Assembly (NCBI GenBank): GCA_020355945.1
Contig: CP070627.1
Span: 4,559,369 to 4,577,958, forward strand
Reading direction: 5' to 3'
Length of the DNA: 18,590 bases
Source: Candidatus Aminicenantota bacterium
GTDB taxonomy: Bacteria > Acidobacteriota > Aminicenantia > UBA2199
The notes below the pieces were generated by a model. The model saw nothing but the letters and a program-made list of their open reading frames with translations, made no database searches and had not been told where the DNA came from. This document shows positions 2,281 to 17,537 of the stretch, one piece after another; position 1 is the first letter of the stretch, and every line of letters starts with the position of its first letter. The translations under genes and the position numbers were made by a program.

Positions 2281-2371
2281 AGGCCAGAACTGCCGGATAA
2301 TCGAAATACAGCATAGAAATATAACAAAGATTGTGATAAAATTAAGTATAAATAATAACGGAGGAAAGCAC

Positions 2372-3487
2372 ATGATTTCACCAGTGGTTTTTTCAAAAAA
2401 ACTAATTGAACTGGGATTTGATACGGCTGTGGGTGTCCCGGACTCTACATTTAAAGGATTGATATCCTATTTCAGTTCCCAGGATGTGTTTAACCATGTG
2501 ATTGCCTGCAACGAATGCGAAGCCATGGGAATTGCTGCCGGTTACTACCTGGCCCACGAAAAACCGGCCATGGTGTATATGCAGAACTCGGGATTCTGTA
2601 AAACCCTCAACCCTTACACCTCGATGCTGGCCGCGGATGTTTATTCTATCCCGGGGCTGATGCTGGTGGGATGGCGGGGTGAACCCGGTAAAAAAGACGA
2701 ACCCCAACATAAAATGATGGGACGCATTATGTTGGACTTATTTAAGGTGATGGAAATAGAGTATACCATATTAGCGGAACCAGGATGGGAAAGCCAACTG
2801 GAAAACGCTCGGGACTACTTGAACCATCACGATCGACCGTATATCATTGCCATTAAAAAAGGAGTTTTCGATGATTTTAAAATCCCGGGAGAAAAGAGCC
2901 AGGCAGTGATGACCCGAGAGGAAGCGTTAAATATTATCGTGGAGAGTACTCCCGGAAATGCGGTCTTTGTGTCCACTACTGGTAAGACATCCAGGGAGTT
3001 GTTTGAAATCCGGGAACAGAGAAAAGAACCTCACGGCACTGATTTTTATACTGTTGGTTCAATGGGGTGTGCGTCTTCTATTGCGTTTGGCGTGGGATTG
3101 GCGGATTCTCAAAAGAAAGTGTTTATTTTAGATGGTGACGGTGCAGCACTAATGCAATTGGGAACCCTGGCCACTATCGGTCATTATAAAAATCCCCGGT
3201 TGAAACATATTATTATAGATAACAATTCCCATGAATCCACCGGGGGTCAGCCCACGGTGTCCGGGAGTGTTAATTTTATTGACATTGCCCGCGCCTGTGG
3301 TTATGAATATGTGGCCTGTGCGGATAACCCGATGGATTTGAGAGAATGTTTCAGTCACCTGGAGGCCAATAACCAATTGTCTTTGGTGGTGGTAAAGGTA
3401 AAAAAGGGTTCACGACCGGACCTGGGCAGACCCACTACAACACCACGAGAGAATCGCGATGCTTTTATCGAAAATTTCCGGCGATAA
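2372..3487 (+). CDS. Phosphonopyruvate decarboxylase (ThDP-dependent)
   Basis: The product should convert 3-phosphonopyruvate to phosphonoacetaldehyde plus CO2, the irreversible step that drives phosphonate biosynthesis. The ATG at 2372 is preferred over an in-frame ATG at 2333 because GGAGGA lies just upstream and the protein (371 residues) then begins MISPVVFSKKLIELGF, as in the Ppd/AepY/Fom2 family. The N-terminal pyrimidine-binding half carries GVPDSTFKGL (21-30) and the catalytic Glu in CNECEAMGIAAGYY (Glu48). The C-terminal pyrophosphate-binding half has GDGAALMQLGTLATIG (255-270) and the metal-binding asparagines in IIIDNNSHESTGGQPT (281-294). That HESTGGQPT stretch distinguishes this family from acetolactate synthases. 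Sulfopyruvate decarboxylase is a close relative and cannot be fully excluded, but the next gene, a phosphonoacetaldehyde reductase candidate, supports the phosphonate reading. Length and motifs look intact. Confidence 0.87.
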   Translation: MISPVVFSKKLIELGFDTAVGVPDSTFKGLISYFSSQDVFNHVIACNECEAMGIAAGYYLAHEKPAMVYMQNSGFCKTLNPYTSMLAADVYSIPGLMLVGWRGEPGKKDEPQHKMMGRIMLDLFKVMEIEYTILAEPGWESQLENARDYLNHHDRPYIIAIKKGVFDDFKIPGEKSQAVMTREEALNIIVESTPGNAVFVSTTGKTSRELFEIREQRKEPHGTDFYTVGSMGCASSIAFGVGLADSQKKVFILDGDGAALMQLGTLATIGHYKNPRLKHIIIDNNSHESTGGQPTVSGSVNFIDIARACGYEYVACADNPMDLRECFSHLEANNQLSLVVVKVKKGSRPDLGRPTTTPRENRDAFIENFRR

Positions 3488-4643
3488 GGTAATTATTGGT
3501 GAAGGAGCGTTGTCTCAATTGGATAACATCCTTCCCCGGTACAAAAACATCTTGTTATTCAACGATAAAGACGGGTTTCATCCTTGCGGCGCCGCGGGTT
3601 ATTTTAATCAAAAGTTTTTGCGGGGTGCAGGGGCAGTTTTTTCAAAAAGCGCCCCTGCCCGCCGGAGGCAAAGTGTTCAGTATGTCTCTTATGCGGGTAA
3701 GGCATTGCCTATTGAGGATGTGGAGGAAAAATACCGGGAGGTAAAACATAATACCGGTGTTGATTTGATTATTGCAGTAGGAGGTGGGACCATTATTGAT
3801 ATCGCGAAAATTATTTCCATTGCTTATTCCAATCAATGTGAAAAAGTGGAAGAAATTTTATCCGATAAAACATTGGAAAACCGGTTGGATTCGGTATTTA
3901 TTCCTACGACTGCGGGCACAGGCAGTGAAGCCACTTCCTTTGCCGTGGTGTACAAGGATAAAGTGAAAATATCCATCGATCGTAAAAGTTTGCTGCCTAC
4001 TTATATTGTATTGGACCCTCTTTTGTTGAAATCTTTGCCTATACCTATATTAAATTCTACTGTATTGGATGCGTTAGCCCAGGCTGTTGAGTCGATTTGG
4101 GCCAGGGGAAGTACCGGGGAATCAAAGGAATACTCTAAAGAGGCGATTCGGTTGATTTTGGATAATCTTGATAAAGAGAATACCATTGAGCGCTTGAGTC
4201 AGGTCCAGGTGGCCAGTCATCTGGCAGGTAAGGCCATTAATATTTCTAAGACCACCTTACCCCATTCCATCTCATATCCGATCACTTCTTATTTTGGTGT
4301 ACCTCATGGGATTGCAGTATTTTTGACGCTGCCAAAAGTGGTGGAGTTGAATTATTTTACCACAGGAGATACGTTACAAAGTGGTGTTCGATTAGCGGAT
4401 ATCCGGGAGAGTTTTTCTATTTTGTTTTCTCTTTTTGGGGTGGATGGGATTGAGGGGCTGCGGGGGAGATTGGAGAATGTGTTAGTTGAGTTGGGGTTTA
4501 AGACCAGGCTGCGGGATTATGGGATAGGGCGGGAGGCGCTTTCGTTTCTTGCTGACAATGCACTGACCAAGGGGCGCAGTGATAATAATCCGCGCCAGGT
4601 TGACCGGGATGATGTATTGAGGCTGCTGGAGGAGATATATTGA
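3459..4643 (+). CDS. Phosphonoacetaldehyde reductase-like iron-ADH-fold enzyme with in-frame repeat insertion
   Basis: Expected reaction: NAD(P)H-dependent reduction of phosphonoacetaldehyde to 2-hydroxyethylphosphonate, after the upstream decarboxylase. The gene overlaps that gene by 29 bases and has no good ribosome site of its own, so translational coupling is likely. The 394-residue protein shows the group III alcohol dehydrogenase pattern: nucleotide-binding AVGGGTIIDIAK (106-117), PTTAGTGSEAT (149-159), LDALAQAVES (203-212) and GVPHGIA (280-286). Against FucO (Asp, His, His, His), the four metal positions read Asp204, Gln208, Tyr273 and His283. From memory the Gln and the S-Y are usual in the phosphonoacetaldehyde reductase branch, so this need not mean loss of function. 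Residues about 49-72 (QKFLRGAGAVFSKSAPARRR and neighbours) are encoded by a dispersed palindromic repeat lying between the first Rossmann strand region and the PIEDVEEKY segment. The reading frame stays open across it. Confidence 0.8.
   Translation: MLLSKISGDKVIIGEGALSQLDNILPRYKNILLFNDKDGFHPCGAAGYFNQKFLRGAGAVFSKSAPARRRQSVQYVSYAGKALPIEDVEEKYREVKHNTGVDLIIAVGGGTIIDIAKIISIAYSNQCEKVEEILSDKTLENRLDSVFIPTTAGTGSEATSFAVVYKDKVKISIDRKSLLPTYIVLDPLLLKSLPIPILNSTVLDALAQAVESIWARGSTGESKEYSKEAIRLILDNLDKENTIERLSQVQVASHLAGKAINISKTTLPHSISYPITSYFGVPHGIAVFLTLPKVVELNYFTTGDTLQSGVRLADIRESFSILFSLFGVDGIEGLRGRLENVLVELGFKTRLRDYGIGREALSFLADNALTKGRSDNNPRQVDRDDVLRLLEEIY
3602..3672 (+). repeat. Dispersed palindromic repeat, copy A, inside the reductase gene
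   Basis: About 70 bases. The left end TAATCAAAAGTTTTTGCGG (3605-3623) is identical over 19 bases to copy B. The core is a perfect 8-base-pair stem, GCAGGGGC (3627-3634) with GCCCCTGC (3651-3658), enclosing AGTTTTTTCAAAAAGC. The right end CCGCCGGAGGCAAA (3659-3672) is shared with copy C. It lies inside the reductase ORF and supplies about 22 codons without a stop. Confidence 0.8.
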
Positions 4644-7220: not shown

Positions 7221-7230
7221 AATTTTATTT

Positions 7231-7391
7231 TTAGCCACCAGGTTACACGAAGCAGGGGGCGCCCTCAGCCCAAGAAAACTTTGCCTGGCACCAAAATCGC
7301 CAAAATCCACTCGCGGCGGGGCTTGACCACAAACGGCAGCTAACGTATAATTGATTCCTTTTTAAAAACCCTGTCTCTTTGTCTTTGTGGC
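7231..7391. repeat. AGCCAC...GTGGC-bounded segment
   Basis: The left end AGCCACCAGGTTACACGAAG (7232-7251) and the right end CTCTTTGTCTTTGTGGC (7375-7391) are imperfect inverted copies of the same motif. They resemble the ends of the inverted repeat at 14700-14786. About 120 bases of GC-rich sequence without a convincing gene lie between. The right end runs up to the ribosome site of the glycosyltransferase gene, so it forms part of that gene's leader. Confidence 0.45.
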
Positions 7392-9870: not shown

Positions 9871-9937
9871 TAATCAAAAGTTTTTGCGGAGAGTGGCGGG
9901 TACAGGGGGGCAGTTTTTTCAAAAAGCGCCCCCCTGG
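9871..9937 (+). repeat. Dispersed palindromic repeat, copy B
   Basis: Starts 16 bases after the glycosyltransferase stop. TAATCAAAAGTTTTTGCGG (9871-9889) matches copy A exactly. The hairpin CAGGGGGGC/GCCCCCCTG encloses the same AGTTTTTTCAAAAAGC interior as copy A. The right end found in copies A and C (CCGGAGGCAAA) is missing, so this copy is truncated or diverged there. No T tract follows the stem, so it is not a normal intrinsic terminator. The rest of the gap to 10091 holds the short tandem repeat at 10019-10053 and no gene. Confidence 0.75.
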
Positions 9938-10018: not shown

Positions 10019-10053
10019 AGGTGAGCGGGTGAGCGGGTGAGCTTAACCGCTCA
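10019..10053 (+). repeat. 8-base tandem repeat with dyad
   Basis: GTGAGCGG is repeated at 10021-10028 and 10029-10036, with a partial third unit GTGAGC. The inverted partner CCGCTCA follows at 10047-10053. It lies about 40 bases upstream of the DUF4097 start and could fold in the mRNA leader or bind a protein. Confidence 0.45.
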
Positions 10054-10091: not shown

Positions 10092-11006
10092 ATGAAACAT
10101 TTTAAATTATTCGGACAAAAAACATTATTATTGGTACTGATGTTATCGCTTCTCTTTTTAAATGTACAGGCCGGAGACAAAAAAGAGGTCAACAAAACGT
10201 TTAAACCCAAAGAGATTGTCGATATCAAAGTCGTCAGCGGTGACTGTGTTATCAAAAAAGGAAACAACAGCGAAATCAAGGTTCACCTGGTGTATACGTA
10301 TCCCCCTGACAAATTCGAACCTGTATTTGAAGAAAAAGGAAACACACTTATTTTAAAAGAAGAATTTCACAAAACCGAAGGGAAATGTAATATCCATGGA
10401 GAATCCCACTGGACAGTGACCGTACCGGAAAAAACAAACATTGAATTTAAAGCAGCTTCCGGTGACCTGGATGTGGCTGGTTTGAAGAGCAGCATATCGG
10501 CTAAATTAGCCTCCGGTGACGTTACGGTGAAGGATTTTAAAGGAAAGATCAAACTCAAAGCCGCCAGTGGTGAGCTCAATGTAAGTGATTCCACCGGTGA
10601 AATGACTGTAGGGGCAGCTTCCGGTGATATTGAACTCTCCAATGTAAAGGGCACCTTTAATGTCAAAGCAGCCAGCGGTGATATTGATGCATCCGGGATT
10701 GAATTTAATGAACCCAGCAATTTCGAAGCCGTATCCGGTGAAGTTCTCGTTAAACTTGCCAAAAGCAGCACTGTGGATTTGAACCTTAAAACGGTGTCGG
10801 GAGATATCACCCTGGATTACAATGGGAACCCGGTAAAGGGATATTTTAAATTTAAAGGCATGAAGGGCAATATTCACTCAGATATTCCTTTTGACAACAA
10901 AGAAGGCTCCAAATACAGCCCCTTTGTTAAAAAATATTTTAAAAAAGGTGATTCCCCGGAGATTACCCTTAAAGCAGTCTCAGGGGATTTAACCTTTAAA
11001 AAATAG
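10092..11006 (+). CDS. Secreted DUF4097-type beta-repeat protein
   Basis: The 304-residue protein has a start set by AAGGAG eight bases upstream. A signal peptide (MKHFKLFGQKTLLLVLMLSL...VQAG, cleavage near residue 28) is followed by a regular series of about nine repeats of roughly 20 residues, each with a V/A-S-G-D/E turn: VVSGD, AASGD, LASGD, AASGE, AASGD, AASGD, AVSGE, TVSGD, AVSGD. This is the hallmark of the DUF4097 'putative adhesin' family, which is expected to form a parallel beta-helix-like stack. The repeats begin at about residue 50 and run to the very C-terminus (AVSGDLTFKK). No catalytic residues are seen. It is probably a periplasmic or surface protein. Family members often sit near envelope-stress regulators, but none is seen here. 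A terminator-like hairpin follows. Confidence 0.8.
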   Translation: MKHFKLFGQKTLLLVLMLSLLFLNVQAGDKKEVNKTFKPKEIVDIKVVSGDCVIKKGNNSEIKVHLVYTYPPDKFEPVFEEKGNTLILKEEFHKTEGKCNIHGESHWTVTVPEKTNIEFKAASGDLDVAGLKSSISAKLASGDVTVKDFKGKIKLKAASGELNVSDSTGEMTVGAASGDIELSNVKGTFNVKAASGDIDASGIEFNEPSNFEAVSGEVLVKLAKSSTVDLNLKTVSGDITLDYNGNPVKGYFKFKGMKGNIHSDIPFDNKEGSKYSPFVKKYFKKGDSPEITLKAVSGDLTFKK

Positions 11007-11015
11007 CAGTATTAC

Positions 11016-11064
11016 GGGGCAGGCAAAAATAAGGTATTTGGCAGGTCGCAAGCCTGCCCCTTTT
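11016..11064 (+). terminator. Terminator-like hairpin after the DUF4097 gene
   Basis: A perfect 9-base-pair stem, GGGGCAGGC (11016-11024) and GCCTGCCCC (11052-11060), is followed by TTTT, ten bases after the stop codon. The 27-base loop is longer than usual and the T tract is short. It runs straight into repeat copy C. Confidence 0.5.
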
Positions 11065-11140
11065 GCCTCCGGCAGCCAGGGGGAAGGCGCATAGCGCATG
11101 GCGCTTTGCGCATAACCCCCCGCAAAAGCTTTTGATTAAA
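11062..11140 (-). repeat. Dispersed palindromic repeat, copy C (inverted)
   Basis: Read on the minus strand it starts TAATCAAAAGCTTTTGCGGGG and ends TGCCGGAGGCAAA, matching the ends of copy A. The interior sequence differs completely but again forms a long hairpin: GGGGG/CCCCC outside, GCGCA/TGCGC and AGCGC/GCGCT inside. Conserved ends with a changed yet still paired interior suggest selection on structure or a modular mobile element. Confidence 0.7.
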
Positions 11141-13573: not shown

Positions 13574-14674
13574 CTATTTAGGAAGGGAAATTTCGTATTT
13601 GGCGATTTTTCTTTCTCCCTCCATATCTTCCAAAATGACATACAAATGACCCTTCTTTAGGCATAACACATCTCCGAAACTGAGGCTGTTTGATATGGAT
13701 TCCCCTTCTCCGGGAGTAAATATACTATGATATAAATATTTCCCGTCAAGAGAAAAAATGTCGATGGGCTGGCTTTTCCAATGGGTGACGATATTGTTTA
13801 GAAAAATGAAGACCCGGCCGTCTTCTATCCAAATACGATTAAAATAGGTTAATTCATTAGAAAGATGTTTGACTGCGGCTTCACTTTCATGTTCCACCCG
13901 CGACCCCCGAAAATAATTATAAATAATCTTTTTCTTAAGGTCATTGGAGATTTTTGGCTGTTGCCGCTGCAGGGAAAACCGGTTAATCATGTTGCCATCA
14001 AGATCGATCATATTGATCTGATAAGAATCATCCATACCATAGTAAACCCGTTTGTTTTGGGGATCAAAACTTAATTGCAGCATCTTAGTAAATCCTGGTA
14101 TTGCAGCGATCATCCCGGACCTTGTCACCCTGGCCTCATATAATATGTCTTTTATGATCCGTTTTTTCCCGGTGTGAAGGTTCACATATTTTATTTGTAC
14201 ATTTTCTCGAACCGGCGGCGGGGCGGAAATATATTCGTTTTCATTGATAAAATAGTAAGGTATGATTCCAATACTGATGGAGTGGGTTTTGATATATTCC
14301 CCATTGTTTGAAAAATAGTGTAATTTAGCGGGGTAATCATAAATAACCAGTTTGTCCTTTACTGCAAAAATTAATCCTTCACGGGCGACTTCTCCGGGTC
14401 CCTGCCCTTTCTTTCCAAAGGTGGCTTTTAATTTTCCATTTTTATCAAGAATGTAATTCAAAGCGAACTTCTCATCGTAAATATAAACGATTTCGTCGTC
14501 TGATACGGTTATTATAGGAGAAACGATGGGATTTCCTCCTATTTCGGTAATCTCCCATACTTTCCGAGCCTTTAAATCCCAAACACCTTTTAAGGGTTTG
14601 TCAGGGTTGACCACTTCGGATAGTAGGGGAAATACAAAAAACAACCACACCACAAAAAATAATATTTTTTTCAT
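13574..14674 (-). CDS. Exported six-bladed beta-propeller protein (second paralog)
   Basis: The ATG at 14674 is preferred over one at 14707 because AAGGAG lies seven bases upstream and the product (366 residues) then begins with a clean signal peptide, MKKILFFVVWLFFVFPLLSE. The mature protein opens VVNPDKPLKGVWDLKARKVWEI, nearly the same as the paralog immediately upstream. It carries the conserved blade signature GKKGQGPGEV, then repeated strand pairs ending with DIFSLDGKYLYHSIFTPGEGE and GHLYVILEDMEGE. This fits the '6-bladed beta-propeller' family common in Bacteroidota and Aminicenantota, which usually are periplasmic or surface binding proteins without known catalysis. Separated from its paralog by a 110-base gap containing a long inverted repeat. 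No promoter was seen, so it may be co-transcribed with the upstream gene if the repeat allows read-through. Confidence 0.8.
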   Translation of the reverse strand: MKKILFFVVWLFFVFPLLSEVVNPDKPLKGVWDLKARKVWEITEIGGNPIVSPIITVSDDEIVYIYDEKFALNYILDKNGKLKATFGKKGQGPGEVAREGLIFAVKDKLVIYDYPAKLHYFSNNGEYIKTHSISIGIIPYYFINENEYISAPPPVRENVQIKYVNLHTGKKRIIKDILYEARVTRSGMIAAIPGFTKMLQLSFDPQNKRVYYGMDDSYQINMIDLDGNMINRFSLQRQQPKISNDLKKKIIYNYFRGSRVEHESEAAVKHLSNELTYFNRIWIEDGRVFIFLNNIVTHWKSQPIDIFSLDGKYLYHSIFTPGEGESISNSLSFGDVLCLKKGHLYVILEDMEGERKIAKYEISLPK

Positions 14675-14699
14675 TGTCTTTCTCCTTATAATGTTTTTT

Positions 14700-14786
14700 T
14701 TAGCCACGAAGTTACACGAAGGTACACGAAGTATTTTATAAAAGAAGATTCTCTTTCTTTGTGCCTCTTTGTGTATCTTTGTGGCT
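14700..14786. repeat. Imperfect inverted repeat between the two propeller genes
   Basis: The left arm AGCCACGAAGTTACACGAAG (14701-14720) and the right arm ending TTTGTGTATCTTTGTGGCT (14768-14786) are reverse complements with a few mismatches. Both arms extend into further ACACGAAG/CTTTGTG units. The right arm includes bases of the stop codon of the first propeller gene. The motif recurs at 7231-7391 and in the terminator at 11925-11955. It may be a REP-like or MITE-like element or act as a transcript-end structure. Confidence 0.65.
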
Positions 14787-15906
14787 ATTTTTTCATTGGC
14801 AGCGAAATTTTGTATTTGACAATAGATATCTCACCGTCACTGTCCTCTAACACCGCATAAAGATAACCCTTTTTGATTTCAATGTTATTGATAACCGTAG
14901 GAAAATAGATTCTTGAACCGCTGCCGGGTTTGAAAAGCGCCCGGTATAAATATTTACCGTCAAGGGAAAAGATATCCATGGCCTGGCTGTCACTATAGGG
15001 GCCTAAATTCACTGCCAATACGTAAACCAGTCCCTCATCGATTAAAATCCGGCAGAAATGCATCAATTCACCGGGGAACCGATGGACATGTTCTTTAATA
15101 GGCACGTTTATGCGCATTAATTCAAAAAGTTCCGCGATTTTTTCTTTTTCGATTTTTTGTTTTGCCCGGTCCAGGGAAAAGGTATTGACCACCGAACCAT
15201 TTAAATTGGCCACCCGGATCACATAAGCGTCGTTCATTCCATAATAAATTTTGCGGTTCTTGCAGTCATAGCCCAGGATCATCCGGGAGTGCAGCGCATC
15301 CAATCGCATCGGTTGACCTCCCGGTATTGGCGTGGGTTTATCTTTATATGAATATTCCGCAATGGTCTTTTTTTCACCTGTTTTTAGCAGAAAGTGAGTA
15401 ATGGTTCCTTTATCCGGCCAGGACCTGGCGCCAATGGCATAGGTATTCCCGGTGGTGAATATGTATTCATCTTCAGCGATAAAAAACCGGGGGAAATGAC
15501 CCATGGTATTTACCACCACGGATCTGATATATTCTCCTTCCCGGGAAAAATAATGGAGCCTGCCGATATCAATGGCAGCGAGTTTATCATCAGCTAGAAA
15601 AGAAGCCAGGTGCATCCGGACTTCTCCCGGTCCTTCGCCCTTTTTGGCAAAGGCCCTTTTAAAACGACCTTCACTGTCAAAGATAAAACTGGCCTGGTTT
15701 TTAAAGTCATTGACATAAAGGGTTCCATCCTCGGAAACCACAAAATCGGGAGTGGCAAATACCTTACCGTTGGCATGGGTCAATTCCCAAACTTTCAGGG
15801 GTTTCAAATCCCATTCTCCTTTTAATGGTTTGTCAGGATTTTTAACTTCTGCCGAAAGTAAAAATACAGCCAACAACAATATAATCAATAAAATAATTTT
15901 TCTCAT
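14785..15906 (-). CDS. Exported six-bladed beta-propeller protein (first paralog)
   Basis: The ATG at 15906 is chosen over an in-frame ATG at 15981 because GGAGGT lies six bases upstream and gives a 373-residue protein with a signal peptide (MRKIILLIILLLAVFLLSAE). The longer form would overlap the preceding gene and hide the signal peptide. The mature start VKNPDKPLKGEWDLKPLKVWEL and the internal AKKGEGPGEV are shared with the downstream paralog. The C-terminal blades (DIFSLDGKYLYRALFKPGSG, GYLYAVLEDSDGE) also align with it, so the pair arose by tandem duplication. It is expected to be a periplasmic or outer-surface binding propeller; no catalytic motif is seen. It lies 71 bases after the HEAT-repeat gene on the same strand, so an operon with that gene is likely. 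Confidence 0.8.
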   Translation of the reverse strand: MRKIILLIILLLAVFLLSAEVKNPDKPLKGEWDLKPLKVWELTHANGKVFATPDFVVSEDGTLYVNDFKNQASFIFDSEGRFKRAFAKKGEGPGEVRMHLASFLADDKLAAIDIGRLHYFSREGEYIRSVVVNTMGHFPRFFIAEDEYIFTTGNTYAIGARSWPDKGTITHFLLKTGEKKTIAEYSYKDKPTPIPGGQPMRLDALHSRMILGYDCKNRKIYYGMNDAYVIRVANLNGSVVNTFSLDRAKQKIEKEKIAELFELMRINVPIKEHVHRFPGELMHFCRILIDEGLVYVLAVNLGPYSDSQAMDIFSLDGKYLYRALFKPGSGSRIYFPTVINNIEIKKGYLYAVLEDSDGEISIVKYKISLPMKK

Positions 15907-15977
15907 TTTTTTACCTCCTGGGGATTGAGTATTTACGCCAAAGATATAGTCTATTTGCAAAAGTATTTCGACCATAA

Positions 15978-17537
15978 TCATGATTCCGAACCATGTTTTT
16001 CTATGAAATTTTGCCTATTTTGCTTCCACCACTGCTGCCACCATTCTGCGGACTTTCCCTTTTCTCCCGGATAAGGCTCTCCATGTCCGGTAATCATATA
16101 TAGTTCATAATTGATAGTAAATATCACATCCCTTGCTTTCTCCTTCTTTAACTGCTCAATCAGTTTATCCACAACCCGGACGTCTTTAAAAAATCCCAAT
16201 GCTCTTACCACAGACTCTCTTAATTCTTTATCCTCATGATCAAGCTTTTTCAGCAAGATATCCAGGGCACGTGGTTCTTTTAACTCCGCCAGGGCTCTTG
16301 CAGCCTGTAAGATCACTACCTTGTCTCTATCATTTAGTGCTTTTATTAACGGTTCCACCGCCCGTTCATCCCCTAGATAGCCTAAATATTCTGCTGCAAC
16401 TGCTCTTATAATTGGGGCATTATCATTGAGTTTGTTTACCAATGGCATCATTGCACATTTTCCATATAACAAGAATCCATAATAGAACCGGCTATCAAAA
16501 AGATCATTATTAAACCCCTTCTCCCAGCGATTTTTTATTACTCCCATATGAACATTAATGGCTGGATCTTGAAAAGGCCATGGAGCTCCAAATAAAAACA
16601 CGTACAGTACAACTGTCGCCAGTGCCAGGATAACGCCTTTTTTTCGTATCACCACAGGAACCGGAACCCCGCTGCGCCCTAATCCCTTCCTGAAAAAGGA
16701 TAACATCCCCCCAATCAATGTAAGCACCATTGCTGTCATCAATACAGGTTTCATGATGGTTATAAAGGACATCGTAACCATGATGGCAAAACTGAAAATG
16801 TAATAATTCGTAATTAGCTGTGTCCCATTGACCAATCCGAAAATTATAGTGAAAACTCCGATAACCATAAGTAATCCGGTGATGGAAAAAAGCAAATTTT
16901 GTCGCTCCCGGAACTTTCCTTTTAAAAAAATTGCCCCGAAAAACAACAGGTTCTGGATCATATAGAAAATAAATATCAGTACTTTAAGATAGTGATACGA
17001 TTCCAAATAAGGTAAAATCACGTCTCGCTGAGGAAAATAATCCGAGTAACTCACCTCATGAGGAAAATTATAATAAAGATGAATTCCCAGGTTCAACTGC
17101 CAGAGCAAAAATATGGAAGCCAGGATGAATTTTAAAACCGGTATATAGGGTTTATCCTCTTCTTGTACTTCTTTCCAGGCCAAAAATAATACGCTGCACA
17201 CTAAACCTGCTGAAATGATACTGACAATGAGTGGGAAAGGGGATTGGGATTCCAAATAATTAAAGCCTTGAATTTTGATTTCAAAAAATTTACAAATGTA
17301 GAAAAAAACCGGAATTCCAAACAAAAGGATTGAGAAAAAAGCTATTGAAAGAAATTTTACCACCCATTGATTTAACTTCGAATCTTCGGGAATACTTTTT
17401 ATCCACAACCACACCCCAATGAATGAAAGTACAATAGATACAAGAAAAATCCAATTCAGTTCTATATTGAAACGTAAAATTTGCAATTGAATCAACGGGA
17501 TCCATGATATGATTAGTAATGAAGTTGAGAGTTTCAT
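15978..17537 (-). CDS. Multi-pass membrane protein with C-terminal HEAT repeats
   Basis: The ATG at 17537 (519 residues) is preferred over one at 17636 because AAAGGA lies eight bases upstream and the extra 33 residues of the longer form are hydrophilic and come from a GC-rich palindrome. The first two thirds contain about ten hydrophobic segments, such as LLIISWIPLIQLQIL, NWIFLVSIVLSFIGVWLWI, GLLMVIGVFTIIFGLV and GVILALATVVLYVFLFG. Residues about 368-470 hold HEAT/PBS-type helical repeats (IRAVAAEYLGYLGDERAVEP, then VVILQAARALAELKEPRALD, ELRESVVRALGFFKDVRVVD). The tail has the W-rich ending EWWQQWWKQNRQNF seen in other HEAT-repeat proteins. The repeat part is probably a protein-docking scaffold; the membrane part is not a family I recognise. 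Likely co-transcribed with the propeller gene downstream. Confidence 0.7.
   Translation of the reverse strand: MKLSTSLLIISWIPLIQLQILRFNIELNWIFLVSIVLSFIGVWLWIKSIPEDSKLNQWVVKFLSIAFFSILLFGIPVFFYICKFFEIKIQGFNYLESQSPFPLIVSIISAGLVCSVLFLAWKEVQEEDKPYIPVLKFILASIFLLWQLNLGIHLYYNFPHEVSYSDYFPQRDVILPYLESYHYLKVLIFIFYMIQNLLFFGAIFLKGKFRERQNLLFSITGLLMVIGVFTIIFGLVNGTQLITNYYIFSFAIMVTMSFITIMKPVLMTAMVLTLIGGMLSFFRKGLGRSGVPVPVVIRKKGVILALATVVLYVFLFGAPWPFQDPAINVHMGVIKNRWEKGFNNDLFDSRFYYGFLLYGKCAMMPLVNKLNDNAPIIRAVAAEYLGYLGDERAVEPLIKALNDRDKVVILQAARALAELKEPRALDILLKKLDHEDKELRESVVRALGFFKDVRVVDKLIEQLKKEKARDVIFTINYELYMITGHGEPYPGEKGKSAEWWQQWWKQNRQNFIEKHGSES

Follow-up and report, generated by a model that had tools for sequence, protein, structure and literature searches.

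A short palindromic repeat lies in frame inside a probable phosphonoacetaldehyde reductase gene of a Candidatus Aminicenantota bacterium, and the peptide that it encodes recurs in many proteins that are otherwise dissimilar. We analyzed this element in an 18,590-nucleotide (nt) stretch of DNA (contig CP070627.1 of assembly GCA_020355945.1, positions 4,559,369 to 4,577,958 of the forward strand), which we call the window. The best overall explanation, and one that we hold with good confidence, is that the element belongs to an Aminicenantes family of hairpin-forming, non-autonomous repeats that are tolerated in genes and that keep their site while their interior is rewritten. As to class, the element is very probably a coding palindrome that is tolerated and does not inactivate its host gene. 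The interior-rewriting step, taken by itself, we consider evenly balanced.

Three copies of one repeat in the window

We found copy 1 at 3605 to 3673 on the plus strand, copy 2 at 9871 to about 9937 on the plus strand, and copy 3 at 11061 to 11138 on the minus strand; copies 2 and 3 lie between listed open reading frames (ORFs). All three share the left end TAATCAAAAGTTTTTGCGGGG, with 0 to 1 mismatches, at 3605 to 3625 (+), 9871 to 9891 (+), and 11118 to 11138 (-). None of 200 dinucleotide shuffles matched this end, even when up to 3 mismatches were allowed. The right end, GCCGGAGGCAAA(G/A), was found at 3661 to 3673 (+), where a small stem GCC-GGA-GGC is possible by eye, and at 11061 to 11073 (-); a match with 2 mismatches at 10170 lies outside any copy. 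Copies 1 and 2 agree letter for letter over a 26-nt core hairpin (3630 to 3655 and 9907 to 9932). We call this plus-strand hairpin A in copy 1 (GGGGCAGTTTTTTCAAAAAGCGCCCC). In RNA folding, copies 1 and 2 each beat all 200 shuffles (z of -3.7 and -3.5). The preliminary description of this DNA had placed a full copy in the reductase ORF and further ones at 9871 and 11062. There are indeed three copies, but they are unequal: the copy at 9871 has lost its right end, and the copy at 11061 to 11138 keeps the ends of copy 1 around a different interior, a GCGC-rich hairpin that we call type C.

From end to end, copy 1 measures 69 nt and copy 3 measures 78 nt. Between the same marks they measure 66 nt and 75 nt. 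Each of these lengths is divisible by three, a regularity drawn from two copies of which one is constrained by its coding role. Copies 1 and 3 can be read through in every forward frame, and copy 2 in two of the three. Copy 1 also has one open reverse frame and another that stays open until it meets a stop where the element has its left end. Thus, the element is suited to in-frame survival, because copies 1 and 3 are open in all forward frames and have lengths that are multiples of three.

An Rfam scan of the window returned no family over its gathering threshold. One sub-threshold alignment, to Clostridiales-2 (22.1 bits against a threshold of 58.6; E of 0.002 to 0.005 in small searches), was taken as chance, although it aligns with the GGGGTGCAGGGG hairpin. 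Downstream of copy 2, at 10020 to 10042, there is a tandem repeat of GGTGAGCG (2.9 copies).

The insert in the reductase protein

Copy 1 lies in frame, as had been described, inside the ORF at 3459 to 4643 (+), which encodes an iron-containing alcohol dehydrogenase (Fe-ADH). The coding part of the copy, 3606 to 3671 (+), falls within a left-end match from 3605 and a right-end match to 3673 and encodes NQKFLRGAGAVFSKSAPARRRQ, residues 50 to 71 of the reductase. The earlier proposal was that about 22 residues (49 to 72) had been added. We confirmed the peptide, but the insertion is not a clean one. Insert-free orthologs (23 of the 42 rows of our reductase tree) have no such peptide and hold 12 to 16 unrelated residues at the site. 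The 19 carriers hold 25 to 101 residues there, and the net gain in the window reductase is about 11 residues. Native sequence was therefore replaced and not merely split, since the insert-free orthologs hold 12 to 16 other residues in its place.

The predicted structure is a confident Fe-ADH fold in which a single internal segment has low confidence; this segment lies in the insert, and the NQK of the insert peptide is placed at the end of a predicted helix. The model thus locates the insert in a loop, one that is probably disordered and that we would expect to be exposed on the surface; this agrees with the suggestion that the peptide is tolerated in a loop. The other possibility raised earlier was that the insert inactivates the enzyme, so that the gene would be a decaying pseudogene. 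The insert does displace a helix end and native residues. However, the ORF is full, the predicted fold is confident, and the window protein is 80 to 84% identical to insert-carrying orthologs (72% to P0020 and P0021). In addition, the 19 carriers, of varied length, all have long open frames, though the database favors such sequences. Inactivation is not supported, because the frame, the fold, and the residues common to 38 aligned rows (the window protein included) are retained. It is unlikely on the predicted structure, the enzyme may be active, and we regard a decaying pseudogene as very unlikely. Four fragments (P0019, P0032, P0086, and P0093) begin past the site, which fits contig ends and broken frames alike.

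That the insert reflects an assembly or gene-calling artifact is scarcely credible. Many carriers do come from short metagenome contigs, but the window protein lies on a 9.1-Mb contig and the carriers are drawn from jgi, ncbi, ena, and lgn sources.

The same peptide in other proteins

A search with the insert peptides alone returned 100 proteins at an E value of 10 or better. Eight were reductases already listed; the other 92 carry the element peptide in the reductase frame (f1), 62 of them at an E value of 1e-3 or better, and each has at least 18 residues in common with it. With the element masked, the 92 proteins fell into 38 clusters (BLAST E value of 1e-10, 60 residues). By source name they include glycerol-3-phosphate dehydrogenase, folylpolyglutamate synthase, 1-deoxy-D-xylulose 5-phosphate (DXP) reductoisomerase (DXR), thiamine-phosphate synthase, glycosyltransferases, methyltransferases, and an ABC-F protein. 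The element is internal in 57, N-terminal (starting before residue 40) in 21, and C-terminal (ending within 20 residues of the C terminus) in 14. In the DXR P0123, 30 residues stand against one residue in the solved chain 6mh4_A. In the folylpolyglutamate synthase P0122 (element at 246 to 270), the alignment to a solved chain ends at 237 and restarts at 327, which leaves the insert unsized. Thirteen carriers have an organism name. Twelve are Aminicenantes (P0012, P0126, P0139, P0157, P0158, P0177, P0195, P0205, P0218, P0223, P0227, and P0230) and one, P0234, is Acidobacteriota. A second common peptide, about HDNEFSPGNDEN, directly precedes the element in the unrelated proteins P0121, P0122, P0136, P0177, and P0193; it looks like another repeat module attached to the element.

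When four other frames served as queries, 27 proteins matched at an E value of 10 or better (f2, 7; f3, 3; r3, 8; r2, 9), 9 of them at 1e-3. Six of the eight r3 proteins end on the element or one residue past it, as would be expected if the stop came from the TTTTGATTA end of the element itself. Judged from these matches, f1 dominates and the other frames are rarer. This dominance, with the imbalance of queries that goes with it, speaks against a different account in which the element is cut out of the transcript or passed over in translation, like an intron or a bypassing element, so that its frame would be irrelevant. Such an account would suit the strong hairpin of copies 1 and 2, the fixed sites, and the large inserts that are tolerated, and frame-breaking copies would be invisible in a protein database; but no Rfam family reached threshold in the window. 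We consider it highly improbable.

The peptide could also be a functional segment under selection, for instance a tail or loop used in binding, and its presence in repeat DNA a coincidence. Orthologs retain it in the same place and one frame is favored, as this would predict. Yet the ortholog interiors have been swapped for unrelated peptides of 25 to 101 residues, and the peptide is spread over 38 clusters whose proteins are dissimilar outside it. A selected function is therefore quite unlikely, and the element would have no role for the host.

A kept site with a changing interior

Orthologs share the reductase site, and what lies inside it turns over. We typed the reductase interiors by eye, leaving out P0021, as A (GGPGGAVFSKSA), B (GVQGDGFLEKSP), C (ARKAQSAERQANITIGAVRHAPCAMR), and D (long, with VSGSVGQ tandems); type C resembles window copy 3. 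Four well-supported sister pairs have differing interior types. On the reductase tree, interior type requires 9 changes, and 346 of 1,000 shuffles need as few or fewer; thus, interior type has no visible link to descent. An older left-end stub precedes the new left end in 9 of the 19 reductase carriers, and in P0009 and P0200 to P0202 an element start is followed by a spacer and then by another element. Among the other proteins, types A and B are mixed in 9 of 13 multi-member clusters; one of the 13, of adenylating enzymes, has two or more different sites. The insert-free P0017 sits nested among the reductase carriers. Taken together, the sequences suggest that an occupied site is overwritten, through reinsertion or through recombination between copies. 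The tandem-like VSGSVGQ peptides inside the long reductase inserts may be compared with the tandem repeat at 10020 to 10042.

We propose the following course. Short (about 65 to 80 nt), hairpin-forming, non-autonomous Candidatus Aminicenantes repeats, which we infer to be mobile, would land in and around genes. An intragenic copy would survive if it kept the frame and fell within a loop or at either end of the protein. The peptide that it then added would be basic, rich in glycine and proline, and probably disordered. The occupied site would tend to persist while its interior was rewritten, either by a new copy entering the old left end or by recombination between dispersed copies.

Several points weigh against this reading. 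The fold of copy 3 is ordinary (z of -1.5 on the minus strand and -1.2 on the plus strand), with 12 of 200 and 30 of 200 shuffles, respectively, folding as well. The frame counts are not strictly comparable, as f1 was searched with two variants and each other frame with one guessed consensus, and a protein database is limited to inserts with a long open frame and hides copies that break it. Some of the N- and C-terminal positions may be contig ends. In the acyl-CoA ligase P0170, the element faces a variable native segment of similar length, and net insertion therefore differs by gene. The 13 named carriers that give the taxonomic count are a minority of all carriers. The reductase tree has 42 rows and 9 open forks, and a single clade of carriers is not rejected (p-AU of 0.125, or 0.115 with P0020 and P0021); the common sites may be one old inherited insertion rather than many events. 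Finally, the 80 contig loci retained among the matches listed, in which the top full-length row had 36% identity and partial rows had up to 46%, included none titled Aminicenantes and no pair of empty and filled DNA sites.

Similar palindromes in Clostridia

Sequences resembling copy 1, which we call kin, were found elsewhere. One is on a 4.4-kb plasmid labelled C. difficile, which agrees with copy 1 over 49 nt (89.8%, E value of 4e-8). In the order of G007, the genome of locus L006, titled Ruminococcaceae UBA5396, 21 of 197 genomes match at an E value of 1e-3 or better (best, 4e-11), with at most four candidates per genome scored among the matches listed. Many kin copies have a box like AAAGTTTTTG and a hairpin with TTTTTTCAAAAAG, often with a second small hairpin, and by eye the outer stem varies between copies on both sides. 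We placed 39 of 41 kin loci. Nine of the 39 are in long open frames, with 40 codons to either side, and the other 30 are not. By eye and without a family search, L109 alone of these nine resembles a known gene, and its match spans 25 nt only. The exact gapped kin pattern is patchy and not general: it occurs in 3 of 245 genomes of the class, with 67 matches in the 1.5-Mb genome G370 and none for the reversed-pattern controls. At L119 to L128 (G370, G236, and G374), the palindrome AAAGTTTTTG-N-TTTTTTCAAAAAG is accompanied by a second hairpin, and at several of these loci the copy is, by eye, apparently just upstream of a gene start. The likeness of the element and its Clostridia kin may reflect common descent or convergence. 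A wider idea is that Aminicenantes genes would carry kept coding slots, in which a palindrome fixes a tolerated in-frame site, other copies repeatedly overwrite the interior, and orthologs swap loop peptides. The element would then belong to a cross-phylum class of AAAGTTTTTG plus TTTTTTCAAAAAG hairpin whose members lie mainly between genes in some gut Clostridia. We offer this tentatively, at somewhat less than an even chance.

Other searches gave little. A phage search found no match, and viral contigs gave none with two stricter patterns; two viral matches to an 18-mer were judged chance by eye. Plasmid matches of copies 2 and 3 were short (E values of 0.05 to 0.8), and Rfam Flavobacterium-1 on the plasmid locus scored 24.3 against a threshold of 58.9; both were taken as chance. 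A 15-mer search of 20 genomes was uninformative, with 4 one-mismatch matches in 3 genomes against 24 for the reversed control.

We also asked whether the element is a repetitive extragenic palindrome (REP) moved by a Y1 transposase (a REP-associated tyrosine transposase, RAYT). It is a short palindrome in several copies, kin copies are numerous in some genomes, and Y1_Tnp (PF01797) is present in 5 of 10 kin genomes. However, G370, with its 67 pattern matches, has no PF01797 match, and 0 of 11 PF01797 loci of kin genomes hold exact element boxes, a weak test because it concerns kin genomes rather than Aminicenantes and the AAAGTTTTTG box is present in only 23 of 40 element loci. The REP end tag is GTAG (PMC3733652), and neither GTAG nor CTAC, nor CGTC on either strand, occurs in the three window copies. 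The Aminicenantes element also differs from REPs in its many coding matches. A REP origin is unlikely.

Comparison with known coding palindromes

As far as the accessible parts of the cited papers go, Rickettsia palindromic elements (RPEs) are palindromic repeats that sit in frame within numerous genes unrelated to one another and have a conserved peptide (PMC10969869, PMC2996958). They are about 150 bp long (PMC10969869) and end in the tetranucleotide CGTC (PMC3733652). The Aminicenantes element is likewise a hairpin-forming palindromic repeat in several copies (by folding, copies 1 and 2 but not copy 3), in frame in many unrelated ORFs and with a conserved peptide. The earlier likening to RPEs is borne out to this extent: the peptide recurs in many unrelated proteins, from Aminicenantes where named. 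The element differs in its host, in its length (about 65 to 80 nt, roughly half), and in swapping its interior at a kept site, with composites of up to about 100 residues. We do not file it as an RPE, because the CGTC end is absent (all three copies lack both CGTC and GACG) and the element has about half the length given in those parts. By analogy, the element would work like the Rickettsia coding palindromes, and we group it with coding palindromes as a further variant of them.

The same accessible parts mention coding palindromes in Wolbachia and Methanocaldococcus jannaschii (PMC2996958). They also mention intragenic repeats like miniature inverted-repeat transposable elements (MITEs), such as the enterobacterial repetitive intergenic consensus (ERIC), which are small and whose ORFs fuse with genes (PMC10969869). 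The former resemble our element in in-frame coding but have other hosts, and the latter are likewise small repeats fused with genes; both likenesses are of description, not of sequence. With regard to the terminal inverted repeats and target-site duplications of MITEs, what was seen in the window element is a short, imperfect TTTGC/GCAAA end pairing (by eye). PARCEL coding repeats are described in those parts as palindromic and protein-coding, in repeat tracts, many in membrane proteins (PMC2996958). Our element is also palindromic and protein-coding but consists of single inserts, mostly in enzymes by name. The literature searched, which covered few subscription papers, held no publication on coding palindromes of Aminicenantes or on the Clostridia form, and the accessible part of PMC12306157 has nothing on the Aminicenantes element.

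The host gene and its neighbors

The reductase protein matches Pfam PF00465 and PF25137 over cutoff. The name phosphonoacetaldehyde reductase for the ORF at 3459 to 4643, given in the preliminary description, is plausible from its position beside phosphonopyruvate decarboxylase; the dedicated reductase models match below cutoff only (best, 174.3 against 423.7). The decarboxylase gene, at 2333 to 3487 (+), overlaps the reductase start and matches TIGR03297 with 421.5 bits (cutoff, 312.5). In the reductase, Q208, four residues past D204, is invariant in 38 aligned rows; we take this to be the position of a metal-binding His in other Fe-ADHs.

Elsewhere in the window, the ORF at 283 to 2211 (642 amino acids) resembles a C45 autoproteolytic hydrolase under the NCBIfam cutoff (64.4 against 85 bits). 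Two neighboring minus-strand ORFs, 13574 to 14707 and 14785 to 15981, look paralogous, with a similar NPDKPLKG.WDLK start and the DNA repeats D4 and D7. A 32-nt direct repeat with ACACGAAG (88% identical) lies at 7221 to 7252 and 14690 to 14721, and a 10-nt tandem of CACGAAGTTA at 14705 to 14732 adjoins the latter copy.

Implications

For annotation, these results are a warning: a 25-residue peptide common to Aminicenantes proteins that are otherwise unrelated is no sign of homology. For biology, they point to an uncultured group with a habit of coding palindromes, seen in 38 protein clusters and with inserts that keep their site and swap their interior. Such proteins would offer ample material for comparing the ways in which repeats turn into protein loops.
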